From Sandaracinaceae bacterium (GTDB lineage: Bacteria > Myxococcota_A > Polyangia > Polyangiales > Sandaracinaceae), in the NCBI GenBank assembly GCA_040218145.1, contig JAVJQK010000128.1, forward strand, positions 62,001-126,000: 64,000 nt of DNA, read 5' to 3'. Both the position numbers and the translations under genes were made by a program. Of the stretch, positions 5,129 to 12,778 are shown piece after piece (position 1 is the stretch's first letter; each line of letters starts with the position of its first letter). The notes under the pieces are model-generated. The model searched no databases. It had not been told where the DNA came from and saw only the letters and a list, made by a program, of their open reading frames with translations.

Positions 5129-6049
5129 TCAGCCGGCGAAGATCCGTTCCTTGGCCGCCTCGCTGATCGCCCGGACCGCCGGGTGCTCGAGGCGGCGCTG
5201 CACCGTGATGGCGTAGAAGCGCTCGCGGAGCTCGTCCGCGCGCCCGATGACCTCGACGCCATACTGCCGAACGATCTCCTCCTCGATGGCCGACGGGCCG
5301 GGGAACACGCCCGCGCCGTTCTGACCGAACGCCTTCAGCAGCGCGCTGTCCTCGAACTCCGCCACGAGCTGGGGTCGGACGTCGAGCTGCTCGAACCACT
5401 GGTCGAGGTCGCGGCGCAGCAGGGTGTTGTCGGTCGGGAGCAGGATCGGCGCGCCCTCGAGGCTCCGCGGGAAGTCGGGGCGGAGCTTCTGCGCCAGCGC
5501 GCGCACGCCGTAGAACGTGACGCTGCACTCCCCGAGGAGGTGGTTGTAGGCGCGCACCTTGGACTGTCGTCCGAGCGGCGCCTCCGCGAGCACGAGATCG
5601 AGGCTCTGGAGGCTCAGCTCCGCCAGGAGCCGCTCGGTCTTGTCCTCGCGGCAGACCACCTGCACCGGGTCCTCGAGCGTGAGCGCGGGCTCCAGCAGCC
5701 GGTGCAGGATCAGCTTCGGGACCAGATCGCTCACCCCCACGTGGAGCTTCGCCTGCCGGCTGCCGAGGCCACGTCCCTTCAGGGCGTCTTGCATCTCGCG
5801 TCCCAGGGCGAAGATCTCGTCTGCGTACCGAAAGACCACCTGGCCGACCTCGGTCAGCTCGAGGCGTCGGCCCGCGCGACGGAAGAGCTGCTCGCCCAGG
5901 CTCTCCTCGAGCGACTTGAGCTGCTCGCTCACCGTCGGCTGCGCGAGCCGGAGCTTCTTGGCCGCCGCGGTGACGGTGCCCTCCTTCACGGTCATCCAGA
6001 AATAAAAGAGGTGATGGTAGTTCAGCCAGTCCACAGCCGATCCTGTCAC
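5129..6049 (-). CDS. nhaR: LysR-type regulator of the NhaR family
   Basis: The 306-residue LysR-type regulator starts LNYHHLFYFWMTVKEGTV, a form closely matching E. coli NhaR (NYNHLYYFW..KEGSV), the sodium/proton-responsive activator of nhaA. The winged helix-turn-helix spans about residues 8-66 (AAKKLRLAQPTVSEQLKSLE). The remainder is the periplasmic-binding-protein-like effector domain. Unlike in enterobacteria, no antiporter gene is adjacent, so its target is not evident here. It is divergent from the secretion operon starting at 6124, with a dyad in the shared 74-bp region. Family assignment is firm; the signal is inferred. Confidence 0.9.
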   Translation of the reverse strand: MTGSAVDWLNYHHLFYFWMTVKEGTVTAAAKKLRLAQPTVSEQLKSLEESLGEQLFRRAGRRLELTEVGQVVFRYADEIFALGREMQDALKGRGLGSRQAKLHVGVSDLVPKLILHRLLEPALTLEDPVQVVCREDKTERLLAELSLQSLDLVLAEAPLGRQSKVRAYNHLLGECSVTFYGVRALAQKLRPDFPRSLEGAPILLPTDNTLLRRDLDQWFEQLDVRPQLVAEFEDSALLKAFGQNGAGVFPGPSAIEEEIVRQYGVEVIGRADELRERFYAITVQRRLEHPAVRAISEAAKERIFAG

Positions 6050-6123: not shown

Positions 6124-6420
6124 ATGCGAGTCGAGATTCGGTCGATAGGGGGCGCGCTCACCCCTCGGATGCGGGGCGAGGTTCGTCGCGCGCTCCTCGC
6201 GGCGCTCGAGGGACGGCCGGTGGCGCGGGCCACGCTCGCCTTCCGCAGCGAACGACGTCTGTTCTGTGACGTCGAGGTGGAGCTGGCGGACGGAACCCAC
6301 CTCGAGGCGGAGATCTGCGACGTCGACGCGGAGAGCCTGCGCGGACGCAGCGTCACGCGCGCGGTGGCGATGGTCGAGCGGGCGGTCGCGCTGGCCCGCG
6401 TGTGGAGGCGCACGTCGTGA
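6124..6420 (+). CDS. Small RaiA/HPF-like protein, first gene of secretion operon
   Basis: The product has 98 residues. Its pattern of an N-terminal strand (MRVEIRSIGG), a helix, a strand pair (ATLAFRSERRLFCDVEVELADG) and a C-terminal helix resembles the S30AE/HPF fold of ribosome-associated inhibition factors. Sequence similarity is weak, so only the fold class is suggested. The ATG at 6124 is preferred over an upstream alternative because it gives the family-like N-terminus and follows AGAGAGG. The stop overlaps the GTG of the ABC exporter gene (GTGA), so translation is probably coupled. Why an HPF-like protein should lead an export operon is unclear; it could instead be a small dedicated chaperone. 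Confidence 0.65.
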   Translation: MRVEIRSIGGALTPRMRGEVRRALLAALEGRPVARATLAFRSERRLFCDVEVELADGTHLEAEICDVDAESLRGRSVTRAVAMVERAVALARVWRRTS

Positions 6421-8570
6421 CGACGCTGACGATGGACACGGCCGTCGTGCCGCCGCCGCCGCCGATCGGGGACTTCGAGGACCTGCTCAGCCGGCTCGTG
6501 CTGGCGACGGGGAGCGAGCCCGATCGCGACGCGCTGCGGGCCGCCGCGCGTTGCACGCACCCCGGGCCCGACGGAGACCTGGCGTCCGCGCTCGTGGCGG
6601 CGCTGGACGAGCTGGGCCTGCGCGGCGAGGTGCTGCGCGGCACGGTGGCCGAGGCGGCGGCCGCGGTGGGGCCCGAGCACCCGGTCGTCGTCCTGGGCGA
6701 GGGCACGACCGACTGGGTGGTGCTGACGGACCGGCGCGGTCGCACCCTCGAGGTGGAGACGCCGAGCAGCCCGGAGCGACGCTGGCTTCGGCGCGGCGCG
6801 GTCGCGGCGCTGGTCGACCCGGCGGGGCTCGGCGCGCGGGTCTGGGTGGCGATCGATCCGCCCCCCCTGCGCGCGCTCGGCGCCCGGGACGAGCAGGACG
6901 AGCGGGGCGCGCCACCGCCGACCCCGCTCGCGAGGCTGCGCGCTTTGATGCGCCTCGAGCGCCACGACCTGGCGGTGGTGCTCGTCTACGCCATCGGCGT
7001 CGGCGTGCTGACCCTCGCCACGCCCATCGCGGTCCAGGCGCTCGTCAACACGGTGGCCTTCGGCACGCTGCTCCAGCCGCTGGCGGTGCTCGCCTTCCTG
7101 CTCCTCGTGGGGCTCGCCTTCGCGGCGGTCCTGCGCGCGCTCCAGGCGTGGGTGGTGGAGGTGCTGCAGCGTCGGATCTTCCTGCGCTTCGTGGCGGATC
7201 TCTCGCACCGCCTGCCTCGCGTGCGCCTCTCCGCCTTCGACGCGGCGCACGGCCCGGAGCTGTTGAACCGCTTCTTCGACGTCTTCACCGTCCAGAAGGC
7301 CTCGTCGTCGCTCTTGCTCGGCGGCCTCGAGATCGTCCTGACGGCGCTCGTCGGCGCGCTCGTGCTGGCCTTCTATCACCCCATCCTGCTCGCCTTCGAC
7401 GTGCTCCTCGTGCTGCTCGTCTTCGGCATCCTCTTCGTGCTCGGACGCGGCGCGACGAAGACGGCGGTCAAGGAGTCCAAGTCCAAGTACGAGGTGGCCA
7501 GCTGGCTCGAGGAGGTCGCTCGCCACCCCGCCGCGTTCAAGCTCGCCGGCGGCCCCGCGCTCGCGCGAGACCACGCCGATCGGCTCGCGAGCAAGTACCT
7601 GGTCTCCCGCCGCGATCACTGGCGGGTGGTCTTCCGGCAGCTCGTTGGCGCGCTGGCGCTGCAGGCCTTCGCGAGCGCGGGCGTGCTGGGCATCGGCGGG
7701 TGGCTCGTCATCGAGCGGCAGCTCACCCTCGGCCAGCTCGTCGCGGCGGAGCTCATCGTGACCGCGGTCGTCGCCTCCTTCGCGAAGGTCGGCAAGCACC
7801 TCGAGACGAGCTACGACCTGCTCGCCGCGCTCGACAAGATCGGTCAGCTGATCGACCTGCCCACCGAGCCGTCGGCGCGCACCGCGACGCTGCCCACGGC
7901 CGACCCGGACGGGACCCGGCTCCTGGCCGAGGGCGTCCACTTCGCCTACGGGAACCGCCGGGTGTTCGAGGACGTCAGCCTCGAGCTCGCGGCGGGAGAC
8001 CGCGTCGCGCTCTCCGGCGACAGCGGCGCAGGTGCCAGTACGCTGCTCGACGTGTTGACGGGGCTGCGCTCGCCCCGCGCGGGCCGCGTCCTCGTCGACG
8101 GCGTCGACGTCAGCGATCTGCACCGCGACACGCTCCGCCGCCGGACGGCGCTCGTGCGCGGCACCGAGATCGTCGTCGGGAGCATCGTCGACAACGTGGT
8201 CTTCGGCCGGGCTGAGGTGGACATCGCGCGCGTGCGCGTCGCGCTCGAGGCGGTCGATCTGCTGGACGAGATCGCGGCGCTCCCCGAGGGGCTCCACACC
8301 TCGATTCACCCCGGCGGCGCGCCCCTGTCGAGCAGCCAGGCCGTTCGACTGAGCCTCGCCCGCGCGCTCGCCGGGCAGCCGAAGCTGCTCGTGATCGACC
8401 GCGCGCTCGACGGCCTCGACGACGCGACGCGCGATCGCCTGCTCGACGTGATCTTCCGCGACGACGCGCCGTGGACCCTGCTGGTGGTGTCTCGCGACAC
8501 GAACGTGCGCGCGCGCTGCTCCCGTCGACTCCTGCTCGAGGACGGCGCGCTGAAAGAGGTGACCCGATGA
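6417..8570 (+). CDS. Type I secretion ABC exporter (HlyB-like) with degenerate ATPase motifs
   Basis: The product has 717 residues. From the N-terminus it has a C39-peptidase-like domain without an evident catalytic Cys (about residues 15-150), a six-helix exporter transmembrane domain (about 180-460), and a nucleotide-binding domain (about 495-717). The start is GTG 6417: GGAGG lies 8 nt upstream and the codon overlaps the previous stop. The nucleotide-binding domain keeps the right order of motifs but each is altered. Walker A reads GDSGAGAST, with Ala in place of Lys. The signature reads LSSSQ instead of LSGGQ. Walker B reads LLVIDRALDGLD, with Arg in place of the catalytic Glu. The H-loop position reads VVSRD, with Arg in place of His. 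The Q-loop Gln is not apparent. The partners are the HlyD- and TolC-type proteins that follow. It is expected to sit in the inner membrane, but ATP hydrolysis is doubtful. Confidence 0.88.
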   Translation: MTTLTMDTAVVPPPPPIGDFEDLLSRLVLATGSEPDRDALRAAARCTHPGPDGDLASALVAALDELGLRGEVLRGTVAEAAAAVGPEHPVVVLGEGTTDWVVLTDRRGRTLEVETPSSPERRWLRRGAVAALVDPAGLGARVWVAIDPPPLRALGARDEQDERGAPPPTPLARLRALMRLERHDLAVVLVYAIGVGVLTLATPIAVQALVNTVAFGTLLQPLAVLAFLLLVGLAFAAVLRALQAWVVEVLQRRIFLRFVADLSHRLPRVRLSAFDAAHGPELLNRFFDVFTVQKASSSLLLGGLEIVLTALVGALVLAFYHPILLAFDVLLVLLVFGILFVLGRGATKTAVKESKSKYEVASWLEEVARHPAAFKLAGGPALARDHADRLASKYLVSRRDHWRVVFRQLVGALALQAFASAGVLGIGGWLVIERQLTLGQLVAAELIVTAVVASFAKVGKHLETSYDLLAALDKIGQLIDLPTEPSARTATLPTADPDGTRLLAEGVHFAYGNRRVFEDVSLELAAGDRVALSGDSGAGASTLLDVLTGLRSPRAGRVLVDGVDVSDLHRDTLRRRTALVRGTEIVVGSIVDNVVFGRAEVDIARVRVALEAVDLLDEIAALPEGLHTSIHPGGAPLSSSQAVRLSLARALAGQPKLLVIDRALDGLDDATRDRLLDVIFRDDAPWTLLVVSRDTNVRARCSRRLLLEDGALKEVTR

Positions 8571-10111
8571 TGGACGCAGGTCCCTACCGCGAGATGATCG
8601 GCGCGGCGAGGCTCGTGCCGCCGCCCACGCACGCGCGGCGCGTGGCCGTCGCGCTGACGATCTCGTTCCTCGCCTTCGTGCTCTTCGCCTTGCTCTCGCC
8701 CTGGCGACAGAACGTGACGGGCGAGGGGCGCGTGATCGCCTACACGCCGCTCGAGCGGCAGCAGAACATCGAGGCCCCGGTGAGCGGGCGCGTGGTCCGC
8801 TGGCACGTGCAGGAGGGCTCGGTCGTACGTGCGGGGGATCCGATCGTCGACATCTCGGACAATGACCCTCGCTTGATGGAGCGTCTCGAGGTGCGGCGCG
8901 CGGCCCAGGTCGCGCAGCTCGAGACCTACGCGCAGCGCGTCGCGGCGGCGCGGGCCCAGGTGGAGGCGACCGAGCGTGGGCAGCGTCAGGCGATCCGCGC
9001 CGCGGAGGCGCGCCTCCGCGTGGCCACGCAGTCGGTCGAGGCGGCGCGGCAGAGCGAGCAGGCGGCGGAGGCGGCGCTCGACACGGCGCGCCTCAACCTG
9101 GCGCGGCAGCGAGCCCTCGAGGAGCAGGGCCTCGCGTCCCAGCGGCAGCTGGAGCTGGCCATCCTCGCCGAGCAGCGCGCGAGCACCTCGCGGGAGTCCG
9201 CGCGCGCGCGCCTCTCGGCCGCCACGTCGGAGCTGGCCGGCAAGCAGGCCGACCTCGAGCGGGCGAGGGCGGACGCGGACTCGGCCCAGGCCGGCGCGGG
9301 CGCCTCGCTCCAGGCCGCCGTCGCGGGTGAGGCGAGCGCGCGGGCCAGCCTCGCCAGCCTGGAGTCGCAGATCGCGCGCCAGGAGTCCCAGCAGGTGACC
9401 GCCCCGCGCGACGGGACGATCTTCCGCCTCGTCGCCAACCAGGGCGGTGAGCAGGTGAGCGCGGGCGACACGCTCGCCATCCTCGTGCCGGACACCCTGA
9501 GCCGCGCGGTGGAGGTGTGGGTCGACGGAAACGACGCGGCGATCATCGAGGCCGGGCGTCCGGTGCGGATCCAGTTCGAGGGCTGGCCGGCGGTGCAGTT
9601 CGCGGGCTGGCCGTCCGTCGCGGTCGGCACGTTCGGGGGTCGCGTCGCGTTCGTGGACTCCACCGACGACGGGCAAGGAAACTTCCGGGTGGTCGTCGTC
9701 CCGCAGGCGGGCGAAGAGCCGTGGCCCGAGGCGCGCTTCCTGCGCCAGGGCACGCGGGTCAACGCGTGGGTCCTGCTGCGTCGCGTCACCGTCGGCTTCG
9801 AGCTCTGGCGCCAGCTCAACGGCTTCCCGCCCAGCCTCGACGTGCCCCCGACGACCACGACGCGAGGCGCCAGCTCCAGCAGCTACGGCGGCGGCTACGG
9901 TGGTGGCGGCGACTACGGCTCCAGCGACTACGGCTCCAACTCGAGCAGCTACGGCGGCGGGAGCTACGGCGGCGGCGGCTACGGCGGCGGCGGCTACGGC
10001 GGCTACGGCGGCAGCGACTACGGCGGCGGCGGCGAGTACGGGGACTCGGACTACGCCGGCGTCGACGACTACGGCGGGGGCGCGGGCTACGGCGCAGCGG
10101 GGGGCTACTGA
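8567..10111 (+). CDS. HlyD-type periplasmic adaptor with Gly/Tyr/Ser-rich C-terminal tail
   Basis: The 514-residue membrane fusion protein has one transmembrane helix (about residues 26-47). A first half-lipoyl/barrel segment follows (NVTGEGRVIAYTPLERQQNI, EAPVSGRVVRWHVQEGSVV), then a long Ala/Arg/Glu-rich coiled coil (about 105-275), a second half-lipoyl segment (VTAPRDGTIFRLVANQGGEQ) and a beta-barrel domain. The last 80 or so residues are low complexity, built from SYGGG, GGYGG and DYG units, which is not usual for this family. It should bridge the inner-membrane exporter and the TolC-type channel. The start ATGATG overlaps the stop of the exporter gene and AGAGGTG lies just upstream. Confidence 0.9.
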   Translation: MMDAGPYREMIGAARLVPPPTHARRVAVALTISFLAFVLFALLSPWRQNVTGEGRVIAYTPLERQQNIEAPVSGRVVRWHVQEGSVVRAGDPIVDISDNDPRLMERLEVRRAAQVAQLETYAQRVAAARAQVEATERGQRQAIRAAEARLRVATQSVEAARQSEQAAEAALDTARLNLARQRALEEQGLASQRQLELAILAEQRASTSRESARARLSAATSELAGKQADLERARADADSAQAGAGASLQAAVAGEASARASLASLESQIARQESQQVTAPRDGTIFRLVANQGGEQVSAGDTLAILVPDTLSRAVEVWVDGNDAAIIEAGRPVRIQFEGWPAVQFAGWPSVAVGTFGGRVAFVDSTDDGQGNFRVVVVPQAGEEPWPEARFLRQGTRVNAWVLLRRVTVGFELWRQLNGFPPSLDVPPTTTTRGASSSSYGGGYGGGGDYGSSDYGSNSSSYGGGSYGGGGYGGGGYGGYGGSDYGGGGEYGDSDYAGVDDYGGGAGYGAAGGY

Positions 10112-11598
10112 TGACGCGCGCGCTGATCTCGCTCGCGGCCTGGGGCCTCGCCTCGGTCGCGGCGGCCCAGGTGCCTCCCCCCAGCCGCGTGCCGCTGCCG
10201 CCGCTCCCCGAGATGGGGCGGGTGGACGTCGGCGGCGGCGAGCCGCTCACCCTCGGGCAGGTGCTCTCTTCGGTCGAGCGCCATCACCCCGCCATCGAGG
10301 GCGCCCGTCAGGAGCTCGCCGCGGCGGAGGGGGAGCGCTTCGCGGCGGAGGGCGGCTTCGACACCACCCTCTCCGGGCAGGCCTGGATGGCGCCGGCCGG
10401 CTACTACCAGTGGGGACGCGCCCACGCGACCCTGTCGCAGCCGACCCCGCTCTGGGGCGCGACCTTCTACGGCGGCTGGCGCTTCGGCCGCCCCTTCGAC
10501 GCGGACGAGGGGAGCGATCCCGGCATCCCGTCCTACTACCGAAACTACGAGACCCTCGACGGAGGCGAGCTGCGCGCCGGGGTGCGCGTGCCCCTCTGGC
10601 GTGACGGACCGATCGACGGACGCCGTCGTCGGCTCTGGGCCGCCGAGCACTACCGGGACGCCTACGCGCAGTACCTCGAGGTCCGCCGGCTCTACGTCGG
10701 CTACGAGGCGGCGAGCGCGTACTGGTACTGGGCGGCGGCGGGGCGCAAGTACCGCGTCGCGGCGGAGCTGCTCGATCTGGCCGAGGCGCGCGACGCGCAG
10801 ATCCGCGCCCAGGTGGCGGCCGGCGCGTACCCCGCCATCGAGGCGCTCGAGAACCGGCGCGTGATCCTGGCGCGGCGGCGTGATCTCGTGACCGCGCGAC
10901 GCGCGCTCGAGCAGGCCGCGATCTCGCTCTCGCTCTACGTGCGCGATCGGAGCGGCGAGCCGATCGTGCCCTCCGCGGCCCGGGTCCCGGGCGAGATCCC
11001 GCTGCCCGCGCCCGCGCCGCCGCCGCTCGCGGACGCGGTGCAGCGCGCGAGCCGACGCCACCCCATCGTGCAGCGCTACGAGGCGCTCCAGCGTCGCCAG
11101 CAGGTCTACGTCGACTACGCCGAGAACCGCTTCTCGCCGCGCGTCGACGTGCAGCTCGAGGCGAGCGTCGATCTCGGCGACGGCAACGACCGCCAGCGCT
11201 CGACCTACGAGGACCCGGTCGTGGAGGGCTCGGTGCTGCTCGAGATCCCGCTCCAGTTCCGCGACGCGCGCGGGGGCATCCAGCGAGAGCGCGCCGACCT
11301 GGCCGCGCTGCGCGAGGAGGCGCGGCTCGCGCGGGACCAGATCGCGCAGAGCGTTCGGGACGCGCACAGCGCGCTCGTCGCGGCGCACGACGGATTGGCG
11401 CTGGCGCAGGAGGCGGCCGACGTCGCCACCGCGGTGGCCCGCGCGGAGCGGACCCGCTTCGAGCTCGGCGCGACCCAGCTGCTCATCGTGAACCTGCGCG
11501 AGCAGTACGCGGCCGAGGCGCAGAAGTACCTCGCGGAGGCCCGCGCCGAGCTGCAGATCGCGCACGCGCGATGGCGGGCCGTCGTGCCCCCGGAGTAG
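10111..11598 (+). CDS. TolC-type outer membrane efflux/secretion channel
   Basis: The 495-residue product has a cleavable signal peptide (ALISLAAWGLASVAAAQ) and the duplicated helical layout of outer membrane efflux proteins. The first repeat begins at LTLGQVLSSVERHHPAIEGA and the second at LADAVQRASRRHPIVQRYEA; both contain the family's Asn/His-Pro element. Aromatic-rich stretches (WMAPAGYYQWGRAHA, YYRNYETLDGG) fit beta-barrel strands. The ATG overlaps the previous stop by one base (TGATG). With the two preceding genes it forms a complete tripartite type I secretion or efflux set. Confidence 0.9.
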   Translation: MTRALISLAAWGLASVAAAQVPPPSRVPLPPLPEMGRVDVGGGEPLTLGQVLSSVERHHPAIEGARQELAAAEGERFAAEGGFDTTLSGQAWMAPAGYYQWGRAHATLSQPTPLWGATFYGGWRFGRPFDADEGSDPGIPSYYRNYETLDGGELRAGVRVPLWRDGPIDGRRRRLWAAEHYRDAYAQYLEVRRLYVGYEAASAYWYWAAAGRKYRVAAELLDLAEARDAQIRAQVAAGAYPAIEALENRRVILARRRDLVTARRALEQAAISLSLYVRDRSGEPIVPSAARVPGEIPLPAPAPPPLADAVQRASRRHPIVQRYEALQRRQQVYVDYAENRFSPRVDVQLEASVDLGDGNDRQRSTYEDPVVEGSVLLEIPLQFRDARGGIQRERADLAALREEARLARDQIAQSVRDAHSALVAAHDGLALAQEAADVATAVARAERTRFELGATQLLIVNLREQYAAEAQKYLAEARAELQIAHARWRAVVPPE

Positions 11599-11608
11599 GG
11601 TCCGGTCC

Positions 11609-12778
11609 ATGCGAGACCGATTCGCCGCGCTCGGCGCCCGCCTCGAAGACGCCTGGGCCGCCGCCCACCGCGAAGAGGAGGCGTTCCCGGACGTCGCCGA
11701 GGAGGTGCTCGCCGGCTTCGACCTCGCCTTCGACCGGGAGGCCTTCCTCGACGACGTGCTCGACCCCGCCGCGCCGCAGCTCGCGCAGCTCGCGCCGGTC
11801 GGCGTCTTCGGCCAGCCCGGCTTCACCGTCTTCCACGGCGACGGCTTCGTGGTCGACATCTACTACTGGCTCGACTCGCTCAGCGCGATCCACAACCACC
11901 CGTTCTGCGGCGTGTTCACCGTGCTCGAGGGCTTCAGCGTGCACGCGGAGTACGCGTTCGAGGAGACGCGGCGCTTCAGCGAGCGCGTGCGCCTCGGGCC
12001 GATCCGCCTGCGCGCGCTCAGCGTGGTCGAGGCCGGCGAGCGGCGGCGCTTCTCCCTCGCGCGCCACCCGCTCGTCCACGCCCTCGTGCACGTGCCGAAG
12101 CCGAGCCTGTCGATGGTGGTGCGCACCGTGCGGACCGAGGGCTACCTGCGCTACCTGCCGCCGTCGCTGGTGTTGCCGATCGACGCGCCCAACGACCGCG
12201 TGAGCCGGCAGCTGGCGATGCTGGAGTCCCTGCGTCAGGCGCACGACCCGCGCTTCCCCGAGCGCGCGCTTGCGTTCCTCGGGCGCGCCGATCTCGAGGC
12301 GGGGTTCCGCGCGCTCACGCCGATGTGGCCCGACTGCGACGAGGACGATCGGCGCACCCTGCTCGACGCCCTGCGCCCCCGGCACGGCGACGCGGTCGAC
12401 GCGATCCCGCCCGCGCTCGACCACGCCACCCGCACCCAGGCCGCGGACCAGCTGCGGCGCGCGATGACGGCGAGCGAGGACCGGCTGGTCGCGACCGCGC
12501 TCATGCTCGCCGAGGACCGCGCGCAGGTGCTCTCGCTGGTCGGCGCGCGCGCCGACGATCCGGTCGCGGCCCTCCACCGCTTCTTCGACGACCACGCGCT
12601 CTTCGGCTCCGAGGTCGATCAGGTGGTCGGCCACGCGCTCGTCGACGGCCTGGCGCCGCCGGCCATCGCGGCGCGGCTCCGCGAGCGGCTCGGCCCCGAC
12701 GCCGCGATCGACGAGGCCGCCCTCGGCGTCATCGACCCGAGCAGCCCGATGTGGGCGCTCCGCGCGCCTACTCGGTAG
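11609..12778 (+). CDS. Cupin-like putative metal-binding protein, last gene of secretion operon
   Basis: The 389-residue cytosolic protein has no signal peptide. The central part (about residues 65-180) looks like a cupin: DSLSAIHNHPFCGVFTVLEG supplies an HxH pair (about residues 95 and 97) and a downstream Glu, and a second His cluster is HPLVHALVHVPKPS. This arrangement recalls small-molecule dioxygenases of the cysteine dioxygenase type, but I cannot assign a substrate. The C-terminal half is helical and Asp/Arg-rich. It follows the TolC gene by 10 bp and is probably co-transcribed, so it may modify the exported substrate or make a precursor. Its 3' end overlaps the convergent GGDEF gene by 11 bp. 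Confidence 0.6.
   Translation: MRDRFAALGARLEDAWAAAHREEEAFPDVAEEVLAGFDLAFDREAFLDDVLDPAAPQLAQLAPVGVFGQPGFTVFHGDGFVVDIYYWLDSLSAIHNHPFCGVFTVLEGFSVHAEYAFEETRRFSERVRLGPIRLRALSVVEAGERRRFSLARHPLVHALVHVPKPSLSMVVRTVRTEGYLRYLPPSLVLPIDAPNDRVSRQLAMLESLRQAHDPRFPERALAFLGRADLEAGFRALTPMWPDCDEDDRRTLLDALRPRHGDAVDAIPPALDHATRTQAADQLRRAMTASEDRLVATALMLAEDRAQVLSLVGARADDPVAALHRFFDDHALFGSEVDQVVGHALVDGLAPPAIAARLRERLGPDAAIDEAALGVIDPSSPMWALRAPTR

Follow-up and report, generated by a model that had tools for sequence, protein, structure and literature searches.

ABC exporters are defined by their use of ATP, and the reported operation of the LmrA and MsbA membrane domains on ion gradients rests on engineered proteins. A gene in a 64,000-nucleotide stretch of a Sandaracinaceae genome (the whole of this stretch is called the window here) raises the question of what a type I secretion-like exporter does in a complete tripartite operon when its ATP sites are degenerate. 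Our reading, to which we assign a probability of roughly 0.7, is that its product forms the inner-membrane component of a dedicated tripartite exporter whose nucleotide-binding domain (NBD) would no longer hydrolyse ATP and is being lost.

An exporter operon with a degenerate ATPase

The gene opens a tight operon in the order exporter, HlyD, TolC, with short overlaps at 8567-8570 (4 bases) and at 10111 (Table 1). The initial annotation had described this as a complete set of the HlyB-HlyD-TolC type, and indeed both partner genes are intact. The exporter protein exceeds the Pfam cut-offs for both ABC_membrane (PF00664) and ABC_tran, while its N-terminus gave no Pfam match to a C39 peptidase, even at an E-value of 10. 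Its predicted structure (AlphaFold2, monomer, 40-sequence alignment) has a pLDDT of 88.5 and matches full exporters with Z ~30. As for the ATP site, the proposal that every motif is degenerate held for the Walker A Lys, the catalytic Glu, the H-loop His, the Q-loop Gln and the signature, but went too far in two places: Asp661 of the Walker B stretch LLVIDRALD is retained, and the LSSSQ that stands for the signature has kept its Ser and Gln, both Gly being missing.

Table 1 Features of the exporter operon and its upstream neighbours (positions in the window)
Feature	Position	Strand	Remarks
Divergent LysR-type regulator	5129..6049	-	NCBIfam NhaR equivalog, 241 bits against a cut-off of 219
98-aa ORF	6124..6420	+	Stop overlaps the exporter start; without known family
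ABC-type exporter gene	6417-8570	+	717 aa; alternative GTG at 6402
N-terminal alpha+beta domain			Residues ~17-147; from predicted model
Six-helix exporter membrane domain	6909..7862	+	Residues ~170-482, both ends approximate; conserved part of the family, with motifs NRFFD, ES..KY and LGQLVAAE and with Glu445 in TM6
Glu445 codon, TM6	7749..7751	+
Degenerate NBD			Residues ~500-717
Degenerate Walker A, GDSGAGAST	8016..8042	+	Lys to Ala540, GCC at 8034-8036
Q-loop region without Gln, RTALVRGTEI	8142..8171	+	LVRGTE against V.Q[ED] of canonical exporters
Degenerate signature, LSSSQ	8325..8339	+	In place of LSGGQ
Degenerate Walker B, KLLVIDRALDGLD	8382..8420	+	Catalytic Glu to Arg662, CGC at 8400-8402
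H-loop, VVSRD	8493-8495	+	His to Arg693, codon CGC
HlyD-type periplasmic adaptor	8567..10111	+	Pfam HlyD_3; dedicated to the exporter
TolC-type outer-membrane channel	10111..11598	+	Pfam OEP

Might these changes be sequencing errors, or the marks of ordinary pseudogene decay? A few Myxococcota relatives are indeed split or carry an in-frame stop (L173 in G242, L178 in G125, and G248), through either real decay or assembly errors. For the window, however, such an explanation is highly improbable. A second assembly, the MED-G138 Sandaracinaceae MAG, carries a copy that is 99.4% identical, with 13 differences over 2151 bases and none of them in a motif codon, and because the two agree at every motif codon a sequencing error is unlikely. 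Against decay stand the full-length open frame, the intact operon, the well-folded model and the occurrence of similar motif states in distant relatives. The earlier view that this is not a decaying gene is thus upheld.

In its exporter fold, its extra N-terminal domain and its HlyD and TolC partners in the same operon order, the protein resembles the type I secretion exporters (HlyB, LssB and PrtD) and the NHLP exporters (TIGR03797), but differs from them in belonging to a clade of its own and in the loss of ATPase motifs. It scores far below the curated cut-off of every known type I subfamily, with 170.8 bits against the HlyB model TIGR01846 (cut-off 725.55), 178.6 bits against the LssB model TIGR03375 (693.1) and 138.2 bits against the PrtD model TIGR01842 (510.15).

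Erosion and loss of the nucleotide-binding domain across the family

We collected 138 members of the family, mainly from Myxococcota and Bacteroidota, from a sample of genomes of which many are metagenome assemblies. In a membrane-domain tree they form one clade relative to canonical exporters (SH-aLRT 100), although the root inside the family is unsure because the outgroup branches are long. At E ≤ 1e-50 the family was found in 55 of the 284 genomes that surround the window's own at the scale of the phylum, and at E ≤ 1e-55 in 76 of the 296 Bacteroidota genomes searched; it is usually present as a single copy, and it occurs as well in one Phycisphaerae MAG and one Bdellovibrionales MAG. Across 57 genomes, the window's own and those of relatives, orthologues were mostly 40-63% identical, against ~30% for ordinary ABC exporters. 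The order exporter-HlyD-TolC is kept in nearly all loci with sufficient flank. Searches with the window HlyD returned one match per exporter copy, adjoining it wherever the contig allows (two matches come from a short contig or from the end of a contig, and there the exporter gene would be missing), and because of this one-to-one correspondence the pair looks dedicated.

Motif states were scored on one alignment. Among the 131 members that bear an NBD, the Walker A Lys is present in 111, the Walker B Asp in 70, the catalytic Glu in 38, the H-loop His in 27 and an S-x-G signature in 20; all five occur together in 12. A Q-loop Gln stands at the canonical offset in only 4 and is missing in the other 127, so that its loss is probably ancestral; a first count of 15 members proved to be mostly a register artefact. 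Mapped on the membrane-domain tree, the minimum number of changes is 6 for the Lys, 13 for the Glu, 8 for the His, 9 for the signature and 3 for the presence of the NBD itself. The expectation that orthologues would share the substitutions seen in the window was therefore not borne out: erosion of the NBD takes its own independent course in every lineage, and even the closest relative, L002, retains the Lys and the His. The family spans every intermediate from near-intact through partly to fully eroded motifs and on to proteins whose NBD is gone.

The two main phyla differ in what has been kept. The Lys is found in 30 of 50 Myxococcota NBDs, having gone from 20, the window protein among them. 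All 79 Bacteroidota NBDs (L038-L072 and L179-L208) have GK[ST] in Walker A, yet 57 of them lack the Glu, the His and the signature, and their Walker B often reads LEDP, with Asp and Glu exchanged. The combination of GK[ST] and LEDP with a vanished signature and H-loop hints at nucleotide binding without hydrolysis, and because the Lys is universal there, nucleotide binding may still matter in Bacteroidota.

In other members the whole domain is absent. Two lineages are fusions, in which the reading frame of the membrane domain continues directly into HlyD and the intervening NBD is missing (G180, G166 and G234, all of the Myxococcota phylum), and one is a stand-alone membrane protein of 333-339 aa followed by HlyD and TolC (for example G565, G396, G482 and G577, Bacteroidota). 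The stand-alone form was found in 17 Bacteroidota genomes; a survey of one Bacteroidota order yielded 16 copies in 15 of 148 genomes, and HlyD immediately adjoined the gene in all 12 loci of that survey inspected closely. Stand-alone proteins are recognised by Pfam ABC_membrane, whereas the fusions fall below its cut-off and score 240-287 bits against the family's own membrane domain; ABC_tran was found in none of the NBD-less proteins scanned with Pfam. Four NBD queries, run against the flanking sequence of the seven NBD-less loci with longer flanks, gave no NBD-like gene. A model of an NBD-less protein (AlphaFold2, monomer, pLDDT 85.5) has the same membrane-domain fold, with Z 26.4 to HlyB (8dck) and 26.6 to TmrAB.

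A careful tree required three losses of the NBD in every bootstrap, and a single loss uniting the three Myxococcota cases in one clade was rejected (AU test, p-AU 5e-5). Because the nearest NBD-bearing relatives of the NBD-less lineages (L172, L025 and L217) already lack the Glu, the His and the signature, catalysis was probably lost first and the domain later. Two of these relatives, L172 and L025, match the window protein in motif state. As far as sequences can tell, this is a family that has repeatedly shed its ATP-burning parts and kept an intact membrane pump with both of its partners.

Selection on the membrane domain, the coupling helix and Glu445

The membrane domain is more conserved than the NBD in 98.3% of degenerate pairs, compared with 3.8% of canonical pairs, and among intact-motif members of the family the two domains are even (53%). 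In close pairs, omega for the membrane domain was ~0.00-0.2; that for the NBD, ~0.03-0.34, exceeded it in almost all pairs that had enough changes; because the values for the NBD are higher and yet low, it is less constrained but not neutral. The NBD-less proteins are 48-75% identical to each other, with saturated synonymous sites, and purifying selection on their membrane domain and HlyD demonstrably persists after the NBD has gone.

Within Bacteroidota, the coupling-helix motif [ST]-F-K is conserved in NBD-bearing members and relaxed in NBD-less ones. Between NBD-bearing and NBD-less Bacteroidota proteins, the entropy at Phe374 rises from 0.43 to 2.28 bits and that at S/T373 from 1.25 to 2.97 bits, while residue 375 remains basic (Lys to Arg). 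The relaxation at 373 and 374 accords better with a lost NBD-docking site than with the recruitment of a foreign NBD, although 375 does stay basic.

In TM6, by contrast with these relaxed sites, Gly439, Ala443, Glu445 and Lys457 are fixed in the NBD-less Bacteroidota proteins. Of the 138 family members, 136 have Glu445, whereas the canonical exporters used for comparison all lack it, their residue at this position being non-acidic. Since intact-motif members of the family have Glu445 too, it did not arise with the loss of the ATPase. Most of the invariant polar residues lie in predicted cytoplasmic helix extensions and not in the membrane core, according to the inferred topology.

Energy source, cargo and genomic setting

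How, then, might such an exporter be driven? We propose that a homodimer of the membrane domain, docked on its own HlyD, would be the working part, that HlyD and TolC would take the cargo across the periplasm and the outer membrane, and that the NBD would no longer hydrolyse ATP and would be on the path to loss. The ATP-independent role raised by the initial annotation is strongly favoured, because entire lineages no longer have an NBD; transport is probably independent of ATP hydrolysis by the protein itself, and the protein may be a pump driven by something other than ATP. More tentatively, an ion or substrate gradient could act on the membrane domain, with Glu445 as the candidate coupling residue. 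The analogy is with LmrA and MsbA, whose engineered NBD-less forms carry out ion-coupled transport, Glu314 in TM6 of LmrA being essential for proton coupling (PMC2704374, PMC4979069, PMC6155054). Both systems consist of an exporter membrane domain without an NBD, and Glu314 and Glu445 are alike in being TM6 carboxylates, a suggestive likeness at the level of the helix, which makes ion coupling plausible here. LmrA-MD and MsbA-MD, however, are laboratory truncations, whereas the NBD-less members described here are natural, selected genes in a HlyD-TolC operon; evolution appears to have made this excision on at least three occasions and to have retained the outcome.

That ATP might instead be supplied in trans, the protein pairing with a different ABC half-transporter or a free ATPase whose gene lies elsewhere, is suggested by heterodimeric exporters with one degenerate site, which are common and functional (PMC7756269). 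Genomes that carry the family also encode many other ABC exporters, and both the universal Walker A Lys of the Bacteroidota NBDs and the persistently basic residue 375 would suit a partner. TM287/288, TAP, TmrAB and MsRv1273c/72c share with the family a non-canonical Walker B, H-loop and signature, but one consensus site is retained in each of their dimers, whereas the subunit described here, the product of a single gene, has lost both halves of the site, and the NBD is missing altogether from some members. Because degeneracy in the window subunit affects the Walker half as well as the signature half, no partner of any kind could complete a fully canonical composite site. Nor did the operons examined contain a second ABC gene or an adjacent half-transporter with complementary intact motifs, and a scan of the window for canonical Walker A and signature motifs found no other ABC ATPase, in agreement with the original remark that the operon holds no second ATPase gene. 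Together with the relaxation of the docking residues S/T373 and Phe374 after NBD loss, this weakens the heteromeric partner that had been considered at the outset, and we regard supply in trans as unlikely. The UvrA, helicase and kinase genes that adjoin some Bacteroidota loci are unlikely to encode partners, since they are unrelated and most loci do not share them.

A different use of the NBD, as a sensor that binds ATP without hydrolysis and whose binding or release would gate a passive or ion-driven pathway, seems rather doubtful for the family as a whole, though for members with the Walker A Lys it is compatible with our main reading. It would account for the retention of that Lys where the Glu, His and signature have gone, and for the purifying selection on the NBD, but not for the 20 Myxococcota NBDs without the Lys, nor for the relatives that manage without the domain. 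The membrane domain could also be no transporter at all, and serve as an assembly platform, gate or sensor for HlyD and TolC, which are nearly always co-encoded with it and to the first of which it is sometimes fused; the placing of most invariant polar residues in presumed cytoplasmic extensions (again by inferred topology) would accord with this. Since conservation after NBD loss extends to the entire exporter fold, pathway-lining helices included, and no further inner-membrane pump is encoded alongside, we consider such a role improbable.

Returning to export independent of ATP hydrolysis, the chances are about even that the family represents a natural class of tripartite exporters working without ATP, as ion-coupled or facilitated pumps that have lost the NBD at least three times. 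If ATP independence is demonstrated, the family would be a class of its own; its members offer natural proteins with which to test ATP-free transport by an exporter fold and the switch of an ATP-driven machine to another energy source. The family is a variant of tripartite ABC-type exporters, and we found no published account of it, or of a natural NBD-less ABC exporter, in the open-licence papers searched, where work on NBD-less ABC transporters and myxobacterial type I systems dealt with engineered cases or other systems only. HlyD and OEP partners without a classical ABC exporter have been described in loci with a secondary SecA_DEAD protein (PMC4452313); those loci differ in that no ABC-type membrane domain was found there and in their SecA-like gene, none of which was noted in the loci studied here.

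The cargo is probably a small molecule, an inference drawn, weakly, from the TetR-, LysR- (NhaR-) or ArsR-like regulators that adjoin the operons and from the lack of any recognised RTX-type substrate: no RTX nonapeptide cluster lies within the window, in which respect the locus may differ from type I and NHLP systems, and no co-encoded substrate was recognised. In Bacteroidota, a TetR-type gene is usually found upstream of the operon. The window and several other Myxococcota have an adjacent or divergent LysR-type gene that scores as NhaR, with such genes also adjoining the operon in L162, L166 and L170 (in L170 slightly below the cut-off). In the window this gene is likely to be a local regulator. 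In E. coli, NhaR acts as a regulator that responds to Na+, and the neighbour is a weak hint toward ion coupling.

Among the loci examined, the 98-aa ORF that precedes the exporter gene is restricted to the window species. Directly 3' of TolC, a 389-aa ORF (11609-12778, + strand) has no Pfam or NCBIfam match and contains a cupin-like stretch, HNHPFCGVFTVLEG. Finally, the HlyD of most relatives ends at ~440-460 aa, whereas that of the window species continues into a long C-terminal tail rich in Gly, Tyr and Ser (GGYGGGGDYGSSDYGS..., at 9871-10108, + strand).
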